From Acidobacteriota bacterium (GTDB lineage Bacteria > Acidobacteriota > Terriglobia > Acidiferrales > UBA7541), in assembly GCA_021818865.1 (NCBI GenBank), contig JAKASX010000024.1, positions 1 to 40,803 of the forward strand: DNA of 40,803 nucleotides. The letters run 5' to 3'. The position numbers were made by a program, and so were the translations under genes. The notes beneath the pieces are model-generated. The model saw only the letters and a list, made by a program, of their open reading frames with translations, did not search any database and was not told the DNA's origin. Position 1 is the stretch's first letter, and each line of letters starts with the position of its first letter. Shown piece by piece: positions 6,024-17,541 of the stretch.

Positions 6024-6206
6024 TCCGCGCCCGCTTTTCCTTCCCGGCTCGTTGCTGGGGAGGCTCTTCCTGCCGCGTTGGGCGGTTGGATAGACCTGTT
6101 AGGGCGCTGTGTGTTGGGCGAATTGACCCTCGCGCGCGGGGCAGCCGCGTAGGGCCGCGTTTCGAAAATCGAAAAGGGCTTGGGGTTTTCTCCCGGAGGT
6201 GAGGAG

Positions 6207-9200
6207 ATGTCGCGAATTATTTTTCGCGCTTGTCGTTTCAGCGCATTGATCGGTTTCGCCTTTGCGTTTCTAGGTTTGTGTGCCTTGCCCGCCTTGGCAC
6301 AGACGGGCAGCCACGGAGCCGTAACCGTCTTGGTCACGGACCCCAGCGGCGCGATTGTACCCAATACCAATTTGGAACTGGTCGATCTGGCTACAAACCA
6401 GATGCAGAAAGGGGCGACGACCAGCGCCGGCACCTACAGCTTTATCGGTCTGCCCATTGGCACCTACCGGCTGAAGGTCACCAAAGGCGGCTTTGAAAGC
6501 CAGGTATTCGGGAATATTTCGGTGCAGGCGGGCCGCACGACCGACGTCTCCGTCCATCTAAGGGTCGGCACGACCACGCAGCAGGTCGTCGTCAGCGCCG
6601 CCGTCACCCCGCTCCTCCAGACGACCACCAGTTCCATCGCGACCACCATCAATATGAAGCAGATTCAAGATCTGCCGCTCGGCGGCCGCGACATCTCGAG
6701 CCTCGCCTTCCTCACGCCGGGCTACGCCATGTCGCCTGCCAACAACGGCGGCTATGGCACCGACACGTGGAACGGCCTGCCCGTCATCGCGCAAGGCAAC
6801 AACATTAACGGCGTGATCTCCTCCAGCAGCCGCATGAAGTTCGATGGCAACGCGCAGCCGGGTGTTTCGGCGCGGCTTGAAGATATGCAGGAAATGACCG
6901 TGGACACCGGCCAATTGAATGTCAGCGAAGGTTTCGGCCAGGCCGCCATGCAGACCACCTTCGTCACCAAGCACGGAACGAACGCCTATCACGGCCAGGT
7001 GTATGAGGATTTTCGCAATTCCTACCTGAACGCCAATAGCTGGTTCAATGACGCCGTTGGCTTGCCCAAAAATCACCTGATCCTGAACGATTTCGGCGGC
7101 GCCGTCGGTGGCCCGATTCTCAAAAACAAACTGTTTTTCTTTGGCAGCTTCGCCATGTCCAAGCAGCCCGGCGGCTATACCGCGAGCCAGACATTTCTTT
7201 CCCCTCTGGCCCAGCAGGGTATTCTCACGGAATCCAACGGGACGCAGGTGAACCTCTTTTCGCAAGTCGCGCAGCCCAATGGCCTGCCCACGACGATCAA
7301 CTCCCAAATCTCCAGCGCGCTCCAGAAGATCAACACCGCCGTTCAGAGCGGGGTGATCTCGCGCACCAGCGACCCCAACACCGAGCAGGTTAGTTGGCTG
7401 GTGCCTTCTCCCGCGACCACTTACTTTCCTGCGGTCCGCCTCGATTACACGGTTTCTCCCAGCTTGCGGCTCGACGTCAACTGGACGGAAACCAAGTATA
7501 ACCAGCCCGGCGTCGACGCCCCCTCGTTCCCCGGCGCGGCGTTTACTGGCTCTGGCGGCGGCAATAGTTCCAACAATTACACGGCAGGAATCGGCTTGGA
7601 TTGGACTATCTCCCCCACGCTGATCAATCAGTTCCGCGGCGGCTACTACTACAATGCCACCTGGTACGCGCAGGGCGTGCAGCCCACCTATACGACTCTG
7701 CCGAGGATCTTCTTCGGGAGCGGAATGGGAAATTCGGGGCAAACGTTCCCGAACCTCCCTGTCACCACGTACTACCCCATTTTCAACTTTTCCGACAATA
7801 TGACGTGGCAACATGGTGCGCACACCCTCTCCTTTGGTATGTCGTGGTGGCGTGAGCAGGATCACTACTGGAACCCTCCCGACGGAATTCTCAGCTATAG
7901 CCTCGGCCTGGTTAGCGGCGATCCCGCCTTCAACGCGTTCGAAAGCTACTTCGCCAATGTCCCTAGCGCCGACCGCGCGGATGCCGAGAACCTTTACGCA
8001 ACCTTGATCGGGAGAATCTCTTCGGTAAATCCCGGCGGCGGCAGCGGTTTCCCGCTCGACCTCAAGACCGGGCAATTTTACAAGACGGTCGGCGAATACC
8101 CGCTCGACGAACTGATGAAGTCCTGGGGCCTGTTTATCCACGACTCCTGGCGCTACCGGCCATCCCTCACTTTCAATTACGGTCTGCGTTGGGACTTCAC
8201 CGGCGACAATCATGACCTCACCGGCGCCTATCACAGCCCCACCAGCGCTGGAATCTTTGGGCCCTCCGGACCCGGCAATCTCTTCAACCCTGGCGTTTAC
8301 ACGACGGATCAGGCAGGCCTCAATCCGCAATATGTTGCGCGAGTCCACGTCTACCAGCCTTGGAACGTGAGCCCGCAGCCGGAATTTGGCATTGCCTGGA
8401 ATCCGCGGTACAGCTCCGGCCTGCTGGGCAAACTCACCGGACACGGCAACACTGTTATTCGCGCCGGCTACATGCTTCGCCGGTTCACCGAACCGCAGCA
8501 GTATTATTGGGATGCGGCTTCCAACTACGGCTTCGCCTACTACCAATACTTCTCCCTGAGCGCCGCTGCTCCGGAATCCAACGGTCAGCAGGCCACGGGC
8601 ACGTTCGCCCCGGGCAGCCTGACGCTCGGCAATTCTCTCCCTCCCTTCTTCTATAGCTTGCCTCAATACGAAGCGACGGTTCCCGAAGCCAGCCAAACCT
8701 GGTTCGGAAACGGCCTCAGCGGGATTCCCAATAACATCCGGCAGCCTTACGTCCAGCAGTGGAATCTCGGAGTTGAGCGGCAGTTCGGCCACAACAACCT
8801 GATCTCCGTCCGTTACATCGGAAGCCACACCGTTCACGAATGGATTCTCGAGGACCCGAACGAAGTCAACATTTTCCAGCCGACGATGAACATCGGTGGC
8901 GCGCAGGTCCCCGGCTTCTTGAGTGAATTCAAGGCGGCCCAGTCGAATCTGGCGATTAATGCGGCCAACGGTCAGCCGGGCACGTTCGCGGATCTGGGTT
9001 TCACGGGCGAACAGGCTCTGCCGATTTTCAACGCCGCCTTTGCTGGAGAGGCAGCCGACTCGAACGGCGTCCCCGTCGATTACGACAGCGGCCAGTTCAT
9101 CAATTACCTGAACCAGGGAGCCGCGGGTTCCTTTGCGGGCAGTCTGGACACCATCTTTGGAACAGCTCCCTATTTCTGCAATCTGGTCGGCTCCTCGTTT

Positions 9201-10130
9201 TCACCTTGCGTCAACCAAATCGGCTATACGGGATCGGGCGCTGGCTTCCCGATCAATTACTTCCAGGCGAATCCGTACATGTCGGGCAACCAGATTCTCT
9301 ACATGACCGACGCCGGCTTCGGCAATTACAACGGCTTGCAGATTGATTTCCGTCAGAACGAATGGCACGGAATGATGTTTGACGCCAACTACACCTGGAG
9401 CCACGCGCTTGGCATCGAGCCGAACGGGCAATGGCAGGGCTACCCGAACCTGACCACCCTGCGCAATTCGCGCCTGTCCTATGGCCCGAACCCCTACGAC
9501 ATCCGCCAAGTGCTGCACGTCAGCGGCACCTACGATCTGCCCTTTGGCCGCGGTCGGGCATTCCTGAGCAATGCCAACGGCTTCCTGAACCGAGTCGTCG
9601 GTGGCTGGAACGTGGGAACGATTATCACCTACCAGACCGGGTCGCCGTCCCTGCTCGTTGGCGGCTACAACACCTTTAACATCAACGACGGTGGCGTGCT
9701 CCTGAACGGCGTCAGCACCTCCCAGTTGCAAAGCGCGGTTGGTGTGTACACGGTTCCCGGTGGCGCCCCCTACAAGTACGGCATCAATCCGCAGTACTTG
9801 ACCAGCAGCGGATTCGCCAACCCACAGTACTTCGCTCCCAACAGCACGCCCGGCACCTTCGGTCAGCATCCGTGGATCTACGGCCCGCACTTCTTTAACA
9901 CGGACATCGCGTTGACGAAGAGCACCCCGATCCGCGAGAACATCAACTTCGTCTTCCAGGCGGAATTCCTGAATGCCTTCAACCATCCAAACTGGGGCAT
10001 CCAAAACTACGCCGCCTACTACTACATCAACGACAACGTCCAAGGACCGGGTTTCCTCCAGGACAACGTCATCAACGAGAACTCGGGCTTCGGGCGTGAA
10101 ATCGAGCTCCGTGCGAACATTCAATTCTGA
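6207..10130 (+). CDS. TonB-dependent receptor, Oar-like, with carboxypeptidase-regulatory domain
   Basis: A 1307-residue outer-membrane receptor, full length for this class. ATG 6207 is preferred because GGAGG (6195-6199) lies seven bases upstream. Signal peptide 1-31 (cleavage after ALPALA) is followed by a carboxypeptidase-regulatory-like domain at about 35-118 (AVTVLVTDPSGAIVP, then GTYSFIGLPIGTYRLKVT). The plug domain lies at about 125-260 (IQDLPLGGRDISSLAFLTPGY). A long 22-strand-type barrel rich in aromatic and Asn residues comes next. The chain ends in ELRANIQF, with the terminal Phe expected for BAM insertion. The LacI-type operator at 6008-6023 ties it to the downstream L-arabinose genes, so it probably imports arabino-oligosaccharides (inference). 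No SusD-like partner is present, as is usual for acidobacterial receptors of this type. Confidence 0.95.
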   Translation: MSRIIFRACRFSALIGFAFAFLGLCALPALAQTGSHGAVTVLVTDPSGAIVPNTNLELVDLATNQMQKGATTSAGTYSFIGLPIGTYRLKVTKGGFESQVFGNISVQAGRTTDVSVHLRVGTTTQQVVVSAAVTPLLQTTTSSIATTINMKQIQDLPLGGRDISSLAFLTPGYAMSPANNGGYGTDTWNGLPVIAQGNNINGVISSSSRMKFDGNAQPGVSARLEDMQEMTVDTGQLNVSEGFGQAAMQTTFVTKHGTNAYHGQVYEDFRNSYLNANSWFNDAVGLPKNHLILNDFGGAVGGPILKNKLFFFGSFAMSKQPGGYTASQTFLSPLAQQGILTESNGTQVNLFSQVAQPNGLPTTINSQISSALQKINTAVQSGVISRTSDPNTEQVSWLVPSPATTYFPAVRLDYTVSPSLRLDVNWTETKYNQPGVDAPSFPGAAFTGSGGGNSSNNYTAGIGLDWTISPTLINQFRGGYYYNATWYAQGVQPTYTTLPRIFFGSGMGNSGQTFPNLPVTTYYPIFNFSDNMTWQHGAHTLSFGMSWWREQDHYWNPPDGILSYSLGLVSGDPAFNAFESYFANVPSADRADAENLYATLIGRISSVNPGGGSGFPLDLKTGQFYKTVGEYPLDELMKSWGLFIHDSWRYRPSLTFNYGLRWDFTGDNHDLTGAYHSPTSAGIFGPSGPGNLFNPGVYTTDQAGLNPQYVARVHVYQPWNVSPQPEFGIAWNPRYSSGLLGKLTGHGNTVIRAGYMLRRFTEPQQYYWDAASNYGFAYYQYFSLSAAAPESNGQQATGTFAPGSLTLGNSLPPFFYSLPQYEATVPEASQTWFGNGLSGIPNNIRQPYVQQWNLGVERQFGHNNLISVRYIGSHTVHEWILEDPNEVNIFQPTMNIGGAQVPGFLSEFKAAQSNLAINAANGQPGTFADLGFTGEQALPIFNAAFAGEAADSNGVPVDYDSGQFINYLNQGAAGSFAGSLDTIFGTAPYFCNLVGSSFSPCVNQIGYTGSGAGFPINYFQANPYMSGNQILYMTDAGFGNYNGLQIDFRQNEWHGMMFDANYTWSHALGIEPNGQWQGYPNLTTLRNSRLSYGPNPYDIRQVLHVSGTYDLPFGRGRAFLSNANGFLNRVVGGWNVGTIITYQTGSPSLLVGGYNTFNINDGGVLLNGVSTSQLQSAVGVYTVPGGAPYKYGINPQYLTSSGFANPQYFAPNSTPGTFGQHPWIYGPHFFNTDIALTKSTPIRENINFVFQAEFLNAFNHPNWGIQNYAAYYYINDNVQGPGFLQDNVINENSGFGREIELRANIQF

Positions 10131-10443: not shown

Positions 10444-12141
10444 ATGACCGCCCTCGCGGCCTTCGCCGCCGCTCCCGCTCGCCTGGCCCATCTCTCTCCG
10501 ATCGATCTCGTTATTGTCGCCTTCTATTTCATTCTGGTTTTGGGCATAGGTTTCTATCTGAAGGGCCGCACGAAAACCGGCGAGGATTTCTTCATGGCCG
10601 GGCGCGAAATGTCCGCCTGGATCGCCGGTCTTAGCTTCATGTCCGCCAATCTCGGCGCGCTCGAGCTGATGGGCTGGTCCGCCGCTGCCTACGAATACGG
10701 CATTCTCGCCGCGCACGCCTATTGGATCGCCGCCGTTCCCGCGATGCTGTTCCTCGGCATCGTGATGATGCCGTTCTACTACATCTCCAAAACCCACTCC
10801 GTTCCCGGCTATCTCAAACTCCGTTTCAACGAGCCCACTCGCGCCCTCTCCGCCGTCTCTTTCGCCTTCATGACCGTTCTGATGAGCGGCATCAACATGT
10901 ACGCGATGGCCCTCCTGCTCAACATCGTGCTCGGCTGGCACATGAGCTTCAGCATCTGGATTTCCGCGCTCACCGTCGCCATCTACGTCGCTCTCGGCGG
11001 CTTGCGCTCCGCCATTTTCAACGAAGTCCTCCAGTTCGTTCTCATCTGGGCCGGCTCGCTCCTGATTCCGATTCTCGGCCTGGTCGAAGCCGGCGGCTGG
11101 GAACAGCTCAAGGCCCAGATCATTCACAACACCTCCGTCCAGTACGTTCACCTCTGGCGCTATCTCGGCTCGTTCCACAATCCGATGGGCGTCAACTGGG
11201 TTGGCGTCGTCCTCGGCCAGGGTTTCGTCATCTCCTTCGCCTACTGGACCACCGACTTCCTCGAAGTCCAGCGCGTCTTGGCCGCGAAAGATCTCCGCTC
11301 GGCCAAAATGGCTCCGATCATCGCCGCTGGCTTCAAGATGTTCGTTCCCTTCATCGTCATTCTTCCCGGCCTTTTGGGCCTGGTCGTCTTTCCGCATCTC
11401 ACCGGCGCCAGCCTCGCCTCCGGCGGCGCAAAAAGCTACAACGCCGTTCTTCCGCTCATGCTCGTTCGCTATTGCAGTCCGGGCCTGCTCGGCTTGGGCG
11501 TCACCGCGCTGATTGCCGGCTTCATGTCCGGCATGGCGGGCAACGTCAGCGCCTTCGCCACCGTCTGGACCTACGATATTTACCGCGCGCTGATTCGCCG
11601 CGAAGCTTCCGACGCGCACTACGTCCGCATGGGCCGCTGGTGCACGATTCTCGGTGTTCTCATCAGCATCGGCACGGCCTATTTCGTGATGCAATTCCTC
11701 AGCATCATGGACTACGTCCAGGCCCTCTTCAGTATCTTCATCGCGCCGCTTTTCGGCACCGTCATTCTCGGCATGCTCTGGAAACGCACCACCGGCAAGG
11801 GAGCGTTCTGGGGCTTGCTGCTCGGCACCGTCTCGGCCGCCGGCATGTTCGCCTGGGAGCGCCAGGATCCCTCCGCCGTGCGCTACCTCGCGCTCTCGAT
11901 CCACGCGAAACCCCTCGCCGCCGATATCTATCGCGCGCTCTGGTCCTGGCTCATCTGCGTCCTGGTGACGGTCATCGTCAGCTATTTCACCAAGCCCAAG
12001 CCCGAAGCCGAACTCGCCGGCCTCGTCTACGGCGCAACCGAAATCCCGCGCGAAGAAAACGTCCCGCTGCTCCAGAAACCGATGTTCTGGGCGATTGTCG
12101 TGGGCGTGGTTTTCATAGCCATTAACATCATCTTCTGGTGA
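10444..12141 (+). CDS. Sodium:solute symporter (SSS family), probable L-arabinose importer
   Basis: A 565-residue inner-membrane symporter with about 14 hydrophobic helices, typical SSS/SGLT length. Family marks include the first-helix region IDLVIVAFYFILVLGIGFYL, the following GRTKTGEDFFMAGRE loop (an N-terminal hallmark of the family) and the helix-rich core with ALGGLRSAIFNEVLQF. It imports a solute with sodium. The sugar assignment comes from its place between an operator-controlled TonB receptor and the L-arabinose catabolic genes. GGAGG (10422-10426) is 17 bases from this ATG but only six from an ATG at 10433 that opens a four-codon reading frame ending across the symporter start (ATGA). 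Its own stop overlaps the next gene (GTGA). Confidence 0.92.
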   Translation: MTALAAFAAAPARLAHLSPIDLVIVAFYFILVLGIGFYLKGRTKTGEDFFMAGREMSAWIAGLSFMSANLGALELMGWSAAAYEYGILAAHAYWIAAVPAMLFLGIVMMPFYYISKTHSVPGYLKLRFNEPTRALSAVSFAFMTVLMSGINMYAMALLLNIVLGWHMSFSIWISALTVAIYVALGGLRSAIFNEVLQFVLIWAGSLLIPILGLVEAGGWEQLKAQIIHNTSVQYVHLWRYLGSFHNPMGVNWVGVVLGQGFVISFAYWTTDFLEVQRVLAAKDLRSAKMAPIIAAGFKMFVPFIVILPGLLGLVVFPHLTGASLASGGAKSYNAVLPLMLVRYCSPGLLGLGVTALIAGFMSGMAGNVSAFATVWTYDIYRALIRREASDAHYVRMGRWCTILGVLISIGTAYFVMQFLSIMDYVQALFSIFIAPLFGTVILGMLWKRTTGKGAFWGLLLGTVSAAGMFAWERQDPSAVRYLALSIHAKPLAADIYRALWSWLICVLVTVIVSYFTKPKPEAELAGLVYGATEIPREENVPLLQKPMFWAIVVGVVFIAINIIFW

Positions 12142-12374
12142 CGACGATGGAACGCGACGGCTCGATCTCGATCTGGTTTTTCATCGGCATCTGCCTGTTG
12201 GTGGATGGCGTGCTGATTTTCGCCGCCGGCCTCTACCAGCTCTCCCATCCGCCCGTCCATCCGGTCGTTCTCGCCTCGCTCCATGCCAACGTCTGGTGGG
12301 GTGCTGTGCTCGCCGTTTCCGGCGTTCTCTGCATGTGGCAGGTCGCCCCCTGGCGCCACGGGTCGAAAAAGTGA
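12138..12374 (+). CDS. Small two-helix membrane protein, possible symporter accessory subunit
   Basis: A 78-residue protein (75 if the internal ATG 12147 is used) with two hydrophobic helices: ISIWFFIGICLLVDGVLIFA at about 10-30, and a second around VVLASLHANVWWGAVLAVSG. A Pro/His-rich link separates them and the tail WRHGSKK is basic. The start GTG overlaps the symporter stop by four bases, indicating tight coupling. Several SSS transporters are known to have small membrane partners (DUF485 with ActP, YhdT with PanF), so a partner role is plausible. I do not recognise the sequence as one of those families. Alternatively it is an unrelated small membrane protein. Confidence 0.8.
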   Translation: MTTMERDGSISIWFFIGICLLVDGVLIFAAGLYQLSHPPVHPVVLASLHANVWWGAVLAVSGVLCMWQVAPWRHGSKK

Positions 12375-12410
12375 CCGAAGAAAACGCCCTCGTCTCCACG
12401 CCCGCGGCGA

Positions 12411-12474
12411 TTGACAACTCCCGGCCGACTCAGCACAATCTCACGCAGCGGCCCCTTCCGGAAAACGTTTCATC
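12411..12474 (+). promoter_or_regulatory. Internal promoter and operator in front of the LacI-type regulator
   Basis: TTGACA (12411-12416), a 17-base spacer and CACAAT (12434-12439) predict a start near 12446. The AAACGTTT core at 12463-12470 follows, within GAAAACGTTTCA. This resembles the 6008 operator in its centre but has weaker flanks. The arrangement suggests the regulator represses its own internal promoter, downstream of the small membrane protein gene. Confidence 0.55.
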
Positions 12475-12529
12475 TCCGCAAGCCGCTGGGAAGCGTCCCG
12501 CGGCCGGCCGCTCGGTGGGAGACGGCCCC

Positions 12530-13582
12530 TTGAACATTCACGAAGTCGCCCGTCAGGCCAAGGTTTCGATCGCGACGGTCTCGCGCACGATCAATGGCGT
12601 GCCCAGCGTCACGCCCGAGCTTTCCCGCCGCGTCTGGAAAGCCATCGAGGAGATGGGCTACTACCCGAATACCCAGGCCCGCGCCCTCGTTTCCGGCCGC
12701 AGCCGCATCTTCGGCTTGATCGTTTCGGAAATCACCAATCCCTTTTTTCCCGAAATCATTCAGGGATTCGAGGACGTCGCCGTCCAGCACAATTACGAAA
12801 TCCTCGTCACCTCCACCATCCACGACCCGGCTCGCATGGCCCTCGCCGTCCGCCGCATGATCGAGCGCCGCGTCGAGGGCGTCGCCATCGTCACGTTCGG
12901 CATGGAAGAGCCGTTGCTCGACGACCTCAAATTGCGCAAGGTCCCGCTCGCCTTCATCGACGTCGGCCCGCCCCTCCCGCTCGTCAGCAACATTCGCATC
13001 GATTATCTCAACGGAATTCGCCAGGCCGTTCAGCATCTGGCCGCTTTGCGCCACACGCGCATCGCCTTCATTTCCGGCCCGCTCAGTCTGAAATCCGCCA
13101 TGGCTCGCCGCCGCGCGTTCACCGACGCCATTCGCGAAATCGGCCTCGCGCCCAATCCGCGCTATATGATCGAGGGCGATCACACGCTCGAGGGCGGCAT
13201 GGCCGCGCTCCGCGAAATCGCTCGCCTGCGCCAGCGCCCCACCGCCGTCCTCTGCTCCAACGATATGACGGCCATCGGCGTCCTCCGCCAAAGCTACGAG
13301 GAGGGCATCCAAATCCCGCGCGATCTCTCGGTCATCGGCTTCGACGATATTCGCCTGGCCCAGTTCGTCATCCCTCCGCTCAGCACCGTCAAAATGTCGC
13401 AGACGGAAATCGCCCAGCTGGCCTTCAACGCCCTGCTGGCCGATGTCGAGCGGAAAACGCCTTCGCCCAACGGTTCCGAATACGTTCTGCGCACCAGCCT
13501 TGTCCTGCGCGATTCCACCGCGCTCGTCGCCGGTGGCGCGCGTCGCCCGCGGTCCCGCACGGCGGGCGATTCCCAGCCGTAG
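12530..13582 (+). CDS. LacI-family transcriptional regulator, probable arabinose-locus repressor
   Basis: A 350-residue LacI-family protein when started at TTG 12530, which has GGGAG eight bases upstream (12517-12521). The helix-turn-helix then begins almost at residue 1: NIHEVARQAKVSIATVSRT, followed by the hinge PNTQARALVSGRSRIFGL. From about 60 onward there is a periplasmic-binding-protein fold: GLIVSEITNPFFPEIIQGFE, the RRVEGVAIV strand, RIAFISGPLS, and DLSVIGFDDIRLAQFVIPPLSTV near the C-terminus. This is the usual family length. A GTG at 12371 overlapping the previous stop would add 53 residues and is the alternative. The CG-centred palindromes upstream of most genes here fit a LacI-type binding site. 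The inducer is presumably L-arabinose or a derivative (inference). Confidence 0.93.
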   Translation: MNIHEVARQAKVSIATVSRTINGVPSVTPELSRRVWKAIEEMGYYPNTQARALVSGRSRIFGLIVSEITNPFFPEIIQGFEDVAVQHNYEILVTSTIHDPARMALAVRRMIERRVEGVAIVTFGMEEPLLDDLKLRKVPLAFIDVGPPLPLVSNIRIDYLNGIRQAVQHLAALRHTRIAFISGPLSLKSAMARRRAFTDAIREIGLAPNPRYMIEGDHTLEGGMAALREIARLRQRPTAVLCSNDMTAIGVLRQSYEEGIQIPRDLSVIGFDDIRLAQFVIPPLSTVKMSQTEIAQLAFNALLADVERKTPSPNGSEYVLRTSLVLRDSTALVAGGARRPRSRTAGDSQP

Positions 13583-13698: not shown

Positions 13699-14409
13699 AT
13701 GAAACTGCAACGACTTCGCGAAGAGGTTCTCGAAGCCAATCTCGAGTTGGTTCGCCGCGGCCTCGTCCTCTACACCTTCGGCAACGCCAGCGGCATCGAC
13801 CGCGACGAAGACCTCGTCGTCATCAAGCCCAGCGGCGTCTCCTACGAATCTCTCAAGCCTTCGGGTCTCGTCGTCACCGATCTTTCCGGCCAGATCGTCG
13901 AGGGCGAATACCGGCCGTCTTCCGATCTGCCAACGCATCTGGTTCTCTATCGCCAATTCGCGAACATTTGCGGCGTCGTTCACACTCATTCCGAATTTGC
14001 CACCGCTTGGGCCCAGGCCGGCCGTTCGCTCCCATGTTTCGGCACCACCCACGCCGATTATTTCCATGGCCCCGTTCCTGTCACCGCGCATCTCACCGAG
14101 TCCGAAATCGGCTCGGGTTACGAGGAGCAGACCGGAATCGCCATCTGCCGCGCCTTCGAGTCTCTCGATCCCGGCGAAATGCCCGCCGTTCTCGTCCGCG
14201 GCCACGGCCCGTTCTGCTGGGGCAAGGATCCCGCGTCCGCCGCGCATCACGCCGTGATTCTCGAAGCGGTGGCGCGCATGGCCTATTTCACCTTGGCGCT
14301 CAGTCCCGATGCCGCGCCGATTCCTTCCGCGCTCCATGAAAAGCATTTTTCCCGCAAGCATGGAACCGGCGCCTATTACGGCCAGGCCGAGCGAAAAGGA
14401 CAGGGGTGA
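13699..14409 (+). CDS. araD: L-ribulose-5-phosphate 4-epimerase (class II aldolase fold)
   Basis: Converts L-ribulose 5-phosphate to D-xylulose 5-phosphate, the last specific step of bacterial L-arabinose breakdown; cytoplasmic. The 236 residues match AraD throughout. The start LREEVLEANLELVRRGLVLYT and the GNASGID phosphate-site loop are present. The metal site shows His95 and His97 in VVHTHSEFA and His169 in RGHGPF. Asp/ser segment SSDLPTHL, GTTHADYF and the C-terminal HFSRKHGTGAYYGQ are also typical. Length and histidine positions agree closely with the E. coli enzyme. It is the first gene after the operator at 13648 and is followed by the isomerase and kinase. Fuculose aldolases share the fold but lack this C-terminus. 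Confidence 0.93.
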   Translation: MKLQRLREEVLEANLELVRRGLVLYTFGNASGIDRDEDLVVIKPSGVSYESLKPSGLVVTDLSGQIVEGEYRPSSDLPTHLVLYRQFANICGVVHTHSEFATAWAQAGRSLPCFGTTHADYFHGPVPVTAHLTESEIGSGYEEQTGIAICRAFESLDPGEMPAVLVRGHGPFCWGKDPASAAHHAVILEAVARMAYFTLALSPDAAPIPSALHEKHFSRKHGTGAYYGQAERKGQG

Positions 14410-14448: not shown

Positions 14449-14533
14449 GAAATGAGGGAAGAGGTTTCCGGCGTTCCCGGTCCCGGCGTCAGTCGGCAGC
14501 GGGCGGAGCGCCGCCCTCGTGTGCGAGGTGACG

Positions 14534-15958
14534 ATGACGACGCAAAAGAACAAGAAAATGACGTTTGGCCTGCTCGTGGGAAATCGTGGCTTTTTCCCCG
14601 GCCATCTGGCCGAATCCGGCCGCAAGGAAATGCTCGAGGCTCTCGCTCGTGCCGGCCACCAGGCCGTCGTGCTCGATCCATCCGAAAGCCGCTACGGCGC
14701 CGTCGAATCCTACCAGGAAGCCAGGCGCTGCGCCGATCTGTTCCGTTCCCGCGCTGACGAAATTGACGGCGTCATCGTCACCCTCCCCAATTTCGGCGAC
14801 GAACGCGCCGTCGCCGATACCCTCCGCATGGCCCGTCTCGATGTTCCCGTCCTCATTCAGGCCACGCCCGATACGCCCTCGAAACTCTCGATTGCCCATC
14901 GCCGCGATAGCTTCTGCGGCAAAATGTCCGTCTGCAACAATCTCTCGCAATACGGCATTCCGTTCTCACTCACCTCCAATCACACCGTCGCTCCCGATTC
15001 CGACGCGTTCCAGAAAGATCTCGCCTGGTTTGCCGCCGTCTGCCGCGTGACGAACGGTCTGCGCCGCCTCCGCATCGGCAGCATCGGCGCGCGTCCTGCC
15101 GCGTTCCAAACGGTTCGCTACAGCGAAAAACTCCTCGAAGCCTCCGGCATCTCCGTCGAAACCCTCGATCTTTCTGAAATCCTCGCTCGCATTGACCGCC
15201 GCAAGGACGATGACGAAGCCGTCGTCAGAAAGCTCTCGGCGATCGAGCGCTACGTTCCCACCGCCGGCGTCCCCCAAGCCGCCCTCCTCAAAATGGCCAA
15301 GCTCGGCGTCGTCGTCGACGAATGGATGTGCCATTCCGATCTCACCATCAGCGCCGTTCAGTGCTGGACCGCCATCGAGGAGCAGCTCGGCGTGGTTCCG
15401 TGCACGGTCATGAGCATGATGAGCGACGGCCTGCATTCGAGCGCCTGCGAAGTGGATATCTGCGGCGCGCTCAGCATGCACGCCCTCCGCCTCGCCTCGG
15501 AAACGCCCAGCGCCCTGCTCGATTGGAACAATAACTACGGCGACCACCCCGATAAAGCCGTCTGCTTCCATTGCAGCAATCTGCCTAAGCATTTCCTCCG
15601 CAACGTCAAAATGGATTATCAGGCGATCATCGCCGGCACCGTCGGCAAGGAAAATACCTATGGCACGTGCGTCGGCCTCGTGAAATCCGGCCCGATGACC
15701 TTCGCCCGCTTCTCCACCGACGATCGCTCCGGCCGCATTCGCGGCTATCTCGGTGGTGGCGCGTTCACCGATGATCCGCTCGAAACCTTCGGCGGGGCCG
15801 GCGTCGTCGAGATCCCGCGTTTGCAGTACCTGCTCCATTACATTTGCGAAAATGGCTTCGAGCACCACGTCGCCGCCAATCTTTCCTCCGTCTCCGGCGC
15901 CGTCCACGAAGCCGCCACGCGCTATCTCGGCTGGCAAGTCTACCGGCACGAAGCGTAG
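14534..15958 (+). CDS. L-fucose/L-arabinose isomerase-family protein (COG2407 type), probable L-arabinose isomerase
   Basis: A 474-residue sugar isomerase predicted to turn L-arabinose into L-ribulose. ATG 14534 has GAGG (14525-14528) five bases upstream. The fold follows the FucI/AraA-like superfamily: an N-terminal Rossmann-like domain (KMTFGLLVGNRGFFPGHLAE), a middle domain, and a C-terminal barrel-like part. Candidate metal-site residues are the acids in VQCWTAIEEQLG and ACEVDICGALS, plus the histidine in AVCFHCSNLP. It does not look like classical E. coli-type AraA and is closer to the COG2407 group. The function rests mainly on being flanked by araD and araB in an operator-controlled operon, since no araA is seen. 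A different aldose substrate cannot be excluded. Confidence 0.82.
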   Translation: MTTQKNKKMTFGLLVGNRGFFPGHLAESGRKEMLEALARAGHQAVVLDPSESRYGAVESYQEARRCADLFRSRADEIDGVIVTLPNFGDERAVADTLRMARLDVPVLIQATPDTPSKLSIAHRRDSFCGKMSVCNNLSQYGIPFSLTSNHTVAPDSDAFQKDLAWFAAVCRVTNGLRRLRIGSIGARPAAFQTVRYSEKLLEASGISVETLDLSEILARIDRRKDDDEAVVRKLSAIERYVPTAGVPQAALLKMAKLGVVVDEWMCHSDLTISAVQCWTAIEEQLGVVPCTVMSMMSDGLHSSACEVDICGALSMHALRLASETPSALLDWNNNYGDHPDKAVCFHCSNLPKHFLRNVKMDYQAIIAGTVGKENTYGTCVGLVKSGPMTFARFSTDDRSGRIRGYLGGGAFTDDPLETFGGAGVVEIPRLQYLLHYICENGFEHHVAANLSSVSGAVHEAATRYLGWQVYRHEA

Positions 15959-15975: not shown

Positions 15976-17541
15976 ATGGCCATCGTTGCAGGCGTCGATT
16001 TCGGCACGTTGAGCGTTCGCGTCTCGCTCGTCGATAGCGAGCGCGGAATCCTCGCTTCCGGTGTCGAGGAAATCCCCCTCCATCGCCGCCGCGACGATCC
16101 CGAATTCGCCACCCAGTCCCACGACGACCACATGCGCTCGCTCGCCGCCGCCACGCGCGCAGCCCTCCGCCAGGCCGGCGTCTCGGGCGATGAAGTCGCG
16201 TCGATCGCCCTCGATACCACCGGCTCGTCCGTCATTCCCGTCGCCGCTGGCATGGTCCCGCTCGACGACTACTACCTCTGGTGCGATCATCGCGCCAAAG
16301 CCGAAGCCGCCGAAATCACCGCGCTCGCCCACCAGGAGCATCTCGAAGCCATCGAGTGGTGCGGCGGCGTCTATTCCACCGAATGGGGTTTCTCGAAACT
16401 CCTCCACTGGCTGCGCCACAATCCCGAAAAACGCGCCCATTTCTCGAGCGCCTTCGAGCACTGCGATATGGTCGCCGCCACGCTTTCCGGCATCACCGAT
16501 CCCGCGAAAGTCGTTCGCAGCGTCTGCGCCATGGGCCACAAATGGCTTTGGCATCCCGATCTCGGCGGTTTGCCTCCGGAAAGTTTCCTCGTGAAAGTGG
16601 ATCCGCTGCTCGCCGGCGTGCGCTCGAAGCTCGATAGCTCGTTCGCCACGTCCGACAAAATCGAGGGCCATTTGTCCCCCGCCTGGGCCGAGCGTCTCGG
16701 CCTTCGCGCCGGCATTCCGATTCCCGTTGGCGCCTTCGACGCCCATTGGGACGCCATCGGCGCTGGAGTCCGCGAAAACGACATCGTCAACGTCATCGGC
16801 ACGTCCACCTGCATGATCGGCATCACCCGCGAAACGCGCCTCGTCCCCGGCGTCTGCGGCGTGGTGAAGGGAAGCGTTCATCCCGCGTACACCGGCATCG
16901 AAGCCGGCCTTTCCGCCACTGGCGATATTTTCGACGCCATCGCCCGCCGTGCCGGCACGTCCGTCTCTGAATTGAGCAAGGATCTCGAATCCTATCGTCC
17001 CGGCTCGACAGGCCTTCTTCGCCTCACCTGGGATAATGGCGATCGCACCGTTCTCGTGAACGCCAGCCTCCGCGGCGTCACGCTCGGCTGGAATCTTCAG
17101 CACACCGCCAAGGACGAGCTCTTCGCCGCTATCGAAGGCACCGCCTTCCACACCCGCGCCATTCTCGAGCGCATGGCCGAGCACGGCACTCGCATCGAGC
17201 GCGTGATCCACGCCGGCGGCATTCCCCAAACGAATCCCGTCCTGAATCAGGTTTACGCCAACGTCCTCGGCCGTCCCGTCCTCGTTCCAAAAGGTAAAAT
17301 CACCAGCCTCGGCTCGGCCATCTTCGCGTTCCTCGCGGCCGGCGTTTTCCCCACAATCGAATCCGCGCAAGAGCGGTTGTGCCCTCCCTATGCCATCTAC
17401 CAGCCGCAGCCAGAAGCGCAACGCGTCTACGATCAGCTCTATCCGCTCTACAAGCGCCTCTATTTCGATCTCGGCCGGCCAAATGCAGGCAGCGCCTTCG
17501 GCGACGTTTTGCCCACCCTACTCCGCCTCGCGACCGTATAG
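15976..17541 (+). CDS. araB: L-ribulokinase (FGGY carbohydrate kinase)
   Basis: Phosphorylates L-ribulose to L-ribulose 5-phosphate with ATP; cytoplasmic. The 521 residues show the FGGY fold: phosphate-1 loop VDFGTLSVRVSLVD near the start, IALDTTGSSVIPV, the sugar site GAFDAHWDAIGAG with its catalytic Asp, GTSTCMIGI, and the adenosine-site segment IHAGGIPQTNPVLNQ. TTGSS and the GGIPQ motif are characteristic of ribulokinases as opposed to xylulokinases. The start ATG 15976 has GAGG nine or so bases upstream and lies 17 bases after the isomerase stop. The gene ends the araD-isomerase-araB operon, which gives the complete route to D-xylulose 5-phosphate. Confidence 0.92.
   Translation: MAIVAGVDFGTLSVRVSLVDSERGILASGVEEIPLHRRRDDPEFATQSHDDHMRSLAAATRAALRQAGVSGDEVASIALDTTGSSVIPVAAGMVPLDDYYLWCDHRAKAEAAEITALAHQEHLEAIEWCGGVYSTEWGFSKLLHWLRHNPEKRAHFSSAFEHCDMVAATLSGITDPAKVVRSVCAMGHKWLWHPDLGGLPPESFLVKVDPLLAGVRSKLDSSFATSDKIEGHLSPAWAERLGLRAGIPIPVGAFDAHWDAIGAGVRENDIVNVIGTSTCMIGITRETRLVPGVCGVVKGSVHPAYTGIEAGLSATGDIFDAIARRAGTSVSELSKDLESYRPGSTGLLRLTWDNGDRTVLVNASLRGVTLGWNLQHTAKDELFAAIEGTAFHTRAILERMAEHGTRIERVIHAGGIPQTNPVLNQVYANVLGRPVLVPKGKITSLGSAIFAFLAAGVFPTIESAQERLCPPYAIYQPQPEAQRVYDQLYPLYKRLYFDLGRPNAGSAFGDVLPTLLRLATV

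Follow-up and report, generated by a model that had tools for sequence, protein, structure and literature searches.

Gene content of the locus

The DNA stretch analysed herein (the window, 40,803 nucleotides at its full length) is contig C151 of a 3.97-Mb assembly whose nearest named relatives are Acidobacteriota, and its features of interest are collected in Table 1. At its core lies an SGLT-type symporter, which matches the Pfam family SSF (PF00474, 7e-53) and exceeds the cut-off of TIGR00813 (243.7 bits against 184), and to which human SGLT1, vSGLT and SGLT2 are the nearest proteins of solved structure; a structure model of the symporter itself was discarded due to its low confidence (pLDDT 34). 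Directly 3' of the symporter frame, on the same strand, is a small open reading frame (ORF), followed by a LacI-family regulator and three genes of sugar metabolism. The isomerase among them has the fucose-isomerase C-terminal domain as its only domain match and scores far below the cut-off of its closest NCBIfam model (SftI); it presumably stands in place of AraA, and is possibly a non-orthologous L-arabinose isomerase. Since the enzymes (AraD, isomerase and ribulokinase) point there, we infer from the operon content that the operon is of the L-arabinose type and that the symporter complex would import L-arabinose.

Table 1 Features of the symporter locus, in coordinates of the window.
Feature	Position	Strand	Basis
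SGLT-type sodium:solute symporter, 565 aa (P0002), presumed partner	10444-12141	+	SSF PF00474, TIGR00813
Shine-Dalgarno-like motif GGTGA	12137-12141	+	Sequence; 5 nt before ATG 12147
Alternative start of the small gene, GTG 12138 (78 aa)	12138-12374	+	
Small two-helix membrane protein, 75 aa	12147-12374	+	Profile match start, dN/dS, structure model, synteny
Predicted transmembrane helix 1, residues 9-33	12171-12245	+	Alignment, model; conserved IWFF.G and glycine 21
Predicted helix 2, residues 40-66	12264-12344	+	Alignment, model; conserved LH...WWG motif and glycine 59
LacI-family regulator	12371-13582	+	Pfam/NCBIfam matches; possible GTG start
L-ribulose-5-phosphate 4-epimerase AraD	13699-14409	+	NF006047 333.5 bits, cut-off 257
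Isomerase with fucose-isomerase C-terminal domain	14519-15958	+	PF02952 4.6e-30
Ribulokinase AraB	15976-17541	+	NF003154 545 bits, cut-off 428; start estimated from profile match

Upstream of the symporter, a 1316-aa ORF (6180-10130) resembles what we take to be an Oar-type TonB-dependent receptor, and partial homologues of it occur in 8 of 76 loci that carry a match to the small protein (L032-L107, false hits included). Around the same 76 loci, relatives of the window's isomerase were found in 21, of AraD in 13, of AraB in 12 and of the LacI regulator in 10. Ten neighbours taken from seven other loci included GalT, a PfkB-type kinase, sugar-type MFS transporters and a glycoside-hydrolase-like protein, with three unmatched.

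Start site and authenticity of the small gene

The small frame can be opened either at GTG 12138, which overlaps the symporter's stop codon (TGA, 12139-12141) by four nucleotides, or at ATG 12147, five nucleotides past that stop. Judging from the sequence, the ATG is the likelier start, because the profile match to the window protein begins exactly there, because the GGTGA motif, which lies within the TGG TGA of the symporter's final Trp and stop codons, ends five nucleotides before it, and because the starts of relatives agree: the start chosen for them falls between -8 and +37 nt of the symporter's stop codon in 59 of the 64 cases measured, and a Shine-Dalgarno-like motif precedes the small gene in 55 of 70. 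An earlier note on this DNA had described a small two-helix protein encoded at 12138-12374 and translationally coupled to the symporter through a four-base overlap. The open frame, its two hydrophobic stretches and its two modelled helices stand, although its start is doubtful; the overlap is present if GTG 12138 is used, but with the downstream ATG behind GGTGA being likelier, coupling through the overlap is unsupported. At the other end of the gene, the possible GTG start of the LacI regulator (12371) overlaps the small gene's stop codon (12372-12374) by four nucleotides (GTGA), an arrangement also found in L032 and L034.

Given that the ORF is short and comes from an assembly of metagenome type that is split into many contigs, it could be spurious or decaying, but conservation refutes this reading and we give it next to no weight. 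Homologues occur in 82 of 396 Acidobacteriota genomes at E<1e-5, nine positions are near-invariant across 55 small proteins, and the window gene has a dN/dS of 0.13 against its 87%-identical homologue in L032, for which dS is unsaturated. Nine finite dN/dS values among small-gene pairs, several with saturated dS, ranged from 0.04 to 0.27 (L033 was dropped since the script's motif was unmatched, and one pair had an undefined dS). Being conserved and under purifying selection, the ORF is a real gene rather than a chance frame, and the disruption in close relatives that the earlier note had proposed to look for was not seen, the frame there being intact and conserved.

A predicted two-helix hairpin in two subfamilies

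The structure model of the small protein (mean pLDDT 76) consists of the two helices listed in Table 1, with residues counted from the ATG. A Foldseek search of this hairpin against the PDB returned no match at E<=0.001, as expected for two helices. Mean charges show a basic C-terminus and a loop that is acidic on average, and this charge bias suggests that both termini are cytoplasmic and joined by a short periplasmic loop. Two subfamilies were distinguished, one of the SIWFF...LH...WWG type and the other of the LDIR.P.G...N.NLWWG type, which are related to each other by profile comparison (97.8% probability, E 8.5e-13).

The small gene follows one clade of symporters

A search with the single window sequence matched 61 of 396 Acidobacteriota genomes. 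Seven single-sequence matches, judged from their translations only to be false or truncated, were removed before alignment: L072 (AtpB-like), L073 (FabH-like), L074, L076 (channel-like), L106, L107 and the truncated L071. A profile (A1, 58 sequences) whose members were gathered purely by sequence matching found 124 matches at E<1e-5 in the 82 genomes mentioned above, and matched 93 genomes at E<=0.01. The window's own genome holds one copy by simple search, to which the profile adds a distant second. This second copy (L122, G000:C104:20500-27500) belongs to the other subfamily and again lies after a symporter, itself a second and distant one.

For the pairing with symporters, three candidates were scored per genome and all counts cover the symporters so listed. 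A listed symporter was found within 3.5 kb upstream on the same strand for 114 of the 124 matches (56 of 63 at E<1e-20 and 58 of 61 between 1e-20 and 1e-5), and for none of 16 weaker matches (E>1e-5). Six of the ten unpaired matches (G094, G163, G330:C308, G337:C1, G266 and G007) have a symporter or its fragments alongside in the fetched DNA, which leaves G242:C57, G282:C126 (near a contig start), G273:C193 (small frame split) and G351 (truncated). The match in G242:C57 (L121) is a clear homologue with no symporter in its locus, where a ferredoxin-like frame, recognised by eye, lies just upstream on the opposite strand.

Conversely, among the listed symporters, the small gene lies downstream of 114 of the 118 at 47% identity or above, versus none of the 28 at 40% or below; second gene pieces (G388:C18, G345:C48 and G282:C95) and an N-terminal piece (G093:C76) were left out of this count. 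At the four exceptions, symporters of 49-62% identity in G282:C205, G229, G362 and G211:C535 (loci L117, L118, L119 and L120), no small ORF was found directly downstream on reading three frames, and because these are close symporter homologues the small gene cannot be a strict requirement there. The earlier note had proposed to check whether homologues always sit beside this symporter clade; they do so, in both directions, for the great majority, but not for these four symporters nor for the one clear homologue that stands without a symporter. The corresponding figure for the fetched loci, 121 of 126, is biased since loci were fetched mostly because the small gene had been found, and the genome-wide counts are therefore preferred. 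In L128 (2410-3624) a glycosyltransferase-61 gene lies between the symporter and the small gene, and the gap is wider in some other loci as well.

Presence of the gene also follows the symporter tree (56 rows, 39 with and 17 without the gene), which requires 4 trait changes compared with a mean of 14.8 for shuffled labels, and none of 500 shuffled-label trees was as low as 4. In this tree Tsukamurella (L114), whose ORF scores about 12 bits, was labelled by hand as having the gene, and L207, with a 14.6-bit match after its symporter, was counted as absent. Both the identity split and the tree are what would be expected of an accessory protein tied to one SSS clade. Moreover, the small-protein subfamilies follow symporter subclades, the SIWFF type going with the subclade of the window's symporter, and 30 genomes hold both subfamily types.

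Phyla outside Acidobacteriota were sampled through plasmid-collection records only, in which a search with the window protein alone gave no match. Symporters at 40-45% identity in Gemmatirosa, Nonomuraea, Nocardia and Tsukamurella records have a small ORF immediately 3', which matches the profile at E 7e-14 to 8e-7 (small database) in the first three and weakly in Tsukamurella, where a galactokinase gene lies near the symporter. No such gene was found by the 26-28%-identity symporters in Bacteroides, Dinoroseobacter, Catenovulum and Aureibacter records. Going by these matches, the range of the small protein reaches Gemmatimonadota and Actinomycetota, which is wider than could be known from the window by itself.

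Loss of conserved residues beside broken symporters

In four distinct loci with a fragmented or truncated symporter (L060, L061/L062, L093 and L102), the small protein has lost a near-invariant glycine. Of 5 distinct loci with a broken symporter, 4 show the loss of a near-invariant residue, as do 5 of 55 whose symporter is intact (Fisher p=0.0012, kinship of loci ignored); this is a small test in which "broken" was assigned by reading the loci. The fifth broken case is L043, whose small protein is intact and identical to that of L042; it was counted separately, as a broken case without loss.

Comparison with known small partners of SSS transporters

Pfam and NCBIfam gave no usable match for the 58 aligned relatives or for 24 aligned distant members, the best E among the matches listed being ~3e-4 and to unrelated families; these comparisons cover 25 of the 57 Pfam families listed for the relatives, the first 25 listed for the distant members, and all 20 NCBIfam models listed. 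Several small membrane proteins are known beside SSS transporters. YjcH (DUF485, PF04341) is a membrane protein of ~100 aa encoded beside ActP, YhdT (DUF997) is a membrane protein of 80 aa with a gene overlapping that of PanF, and DUF4212 (PF13937) is a two-helix protein of ~80 aa that accompanies SSS transporters. Similar size, two helices and a partner from the same transporter superfamily would make a divergent member of one of these families conceivable, as would a weak match (E 0.016) of one of the 24 distant members to DUF3311, which we take to be another SSS neighbour family. However, no match to any of these models was obtained with the window protein, nor do they appear among the families listed for the 58 relatives, of which 25 of 57 in Pfam and all 20 in NCBIfam were covered. 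The profile comparisons (hhalign) point the same way and stay at noise level, with a probability of 7.0% for DUF485 (E 0.005, near the reversed-profile control, and using three DUF485 sequences only), 4.8% for DUF4212 and 0.4% for YhdT (against a single sequence), in contrast to the 97.8% between the family's own two subfamilies. Gene order differs too, as in E. coli yjcH and yhdT lie upstream of their transporters whereas the small gene lies downstream, and ActP carries acetate. We therefore regard membership in DUF485/YjcH, DUF4212, YhdT/DUF997 or DUF3311 as highly improbable, in agreement with the impression in the earlier note that the protein is not obviously DUF485 or YhdT, albeit with few sequences compared.

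Searched against PDB chains, the family profile found none at E<0.1; the four chains at E<=1 do not carry the name MAP17. Within open-licence papers, nothing was recognised as describing the family. Two further ideas were discarded. A phage holin is suggested by one weak match (PHROG 28727, E 0.001), but the context is a sugar operon and not a phage; and the hairpin does not appear to supply missing C-terminal symporter helices, since gene-less symporters, L136 apart, show no C-terminal extension in the tails inspected.

A candidate accessory subunit and its alternatives

So far as searches can establish, the small protein is associated with the symporter, conserved, and outside the curated families. 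The best reading of these observations, by analogy, is an accessory subunit that would act as MAP17 does on SGLT2, or YjcH and YhdT on ActP and PanF, while being apparently unrelated to them by sequence. We consider it likely that the protein is an integral, beta-type subunit of one SGLT-like sodium/sugar symporter clade, with its binding and its effect on transport deduced from genomic evidence. The hairpin would be made right after the symporter, pack on the symporter's membrane face via its invariant glycine and aromatic residues (IW, LH...WWG), and help the symporter to fold, to remain in the membrane or to function, in much the same way as MAP17 does for SGLT2. It would thereby form a constant second subunit that supports folding, stability or transport. 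The suggestion in the earlier note of a new accessory subunit of sugar symporters gains from the neighbourhood, the intact frame and the mismatch to DUF485 and YhdT, with physical interaction and an effect on transport as its predicted parts.

MAP17 (PDZK1IP1) offers the closest parallel, as an auxiliary subunit of human SGLT2 and SGLT1 and thus a small membrane partner of SGLT-type symporters, the group that holds the closest solved structures to the window's symporter. It differs in that the window protein is bacterial, a two-helix hairpin, and encoded beside its symporter. MAP17 binds TM13 of SGLT2, raises surface expression and uptake, and changes little during SGLT2 transport (PMC10203128). 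By analogy, the role of the small protein is expected to be structural as well.

Taken by itself, adjacency would be compatible with an operon regulator as well, that is, a membrane-bound sensor or regulator that, for example, inhibits the symporter or reports its use instead of forming a structural part of it. Other small membrane proteins are known to act in this way, SgrT on PtsG and MgtS on PitA (PMC10710835), and in the window the very next gene encodes a LacI-type regulator with a possible four-nucleotide overlap. We nonetheless find this explanation unlikely, since the small protein accompanies symporters in operons of differing make-up, whether or not these hold a close LacI homologue (10/76 loci matched the window's LacI), and since more frequent loss and a looser tie to one symporter clade would be expected of a regulator. 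A function of its own in sugar uptake, such as membrane or lipid organisation, with mere co-transcription with the symporter, is less probable still: the homologue in G242:C57 and the four symporters without the gene would suit it, but the split by symporter clade (114/118 versus 0/28), the tracking of symporter subclade by small-protein subfamily and the co-decay with broken symporters argue against it.

Taken more broadly, we lean towards the accessory subunit representing a previously unrecognised family that is nearly universal among a large bacterial clade of SGLT-type sugar symporters, a family spread over at least three phyla, unrelated in sequence to the known SSS partners and independently evolved as a counterpart of MAP17, so that these symporters would normally be two-component systems. 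Drugs are directed at SGLT-type symporters, for which the bacterial homologues are used as structural models. If the reading is true, producing such symporters without the small subunit may yield protein that is unstable or inactive, and a genetically tractable bacterial system would become available for testing why a helper such as MAP17 is needed by some SGLTs, while a family with no usable match in Pfam or NCBIfam would acquire a testable role.
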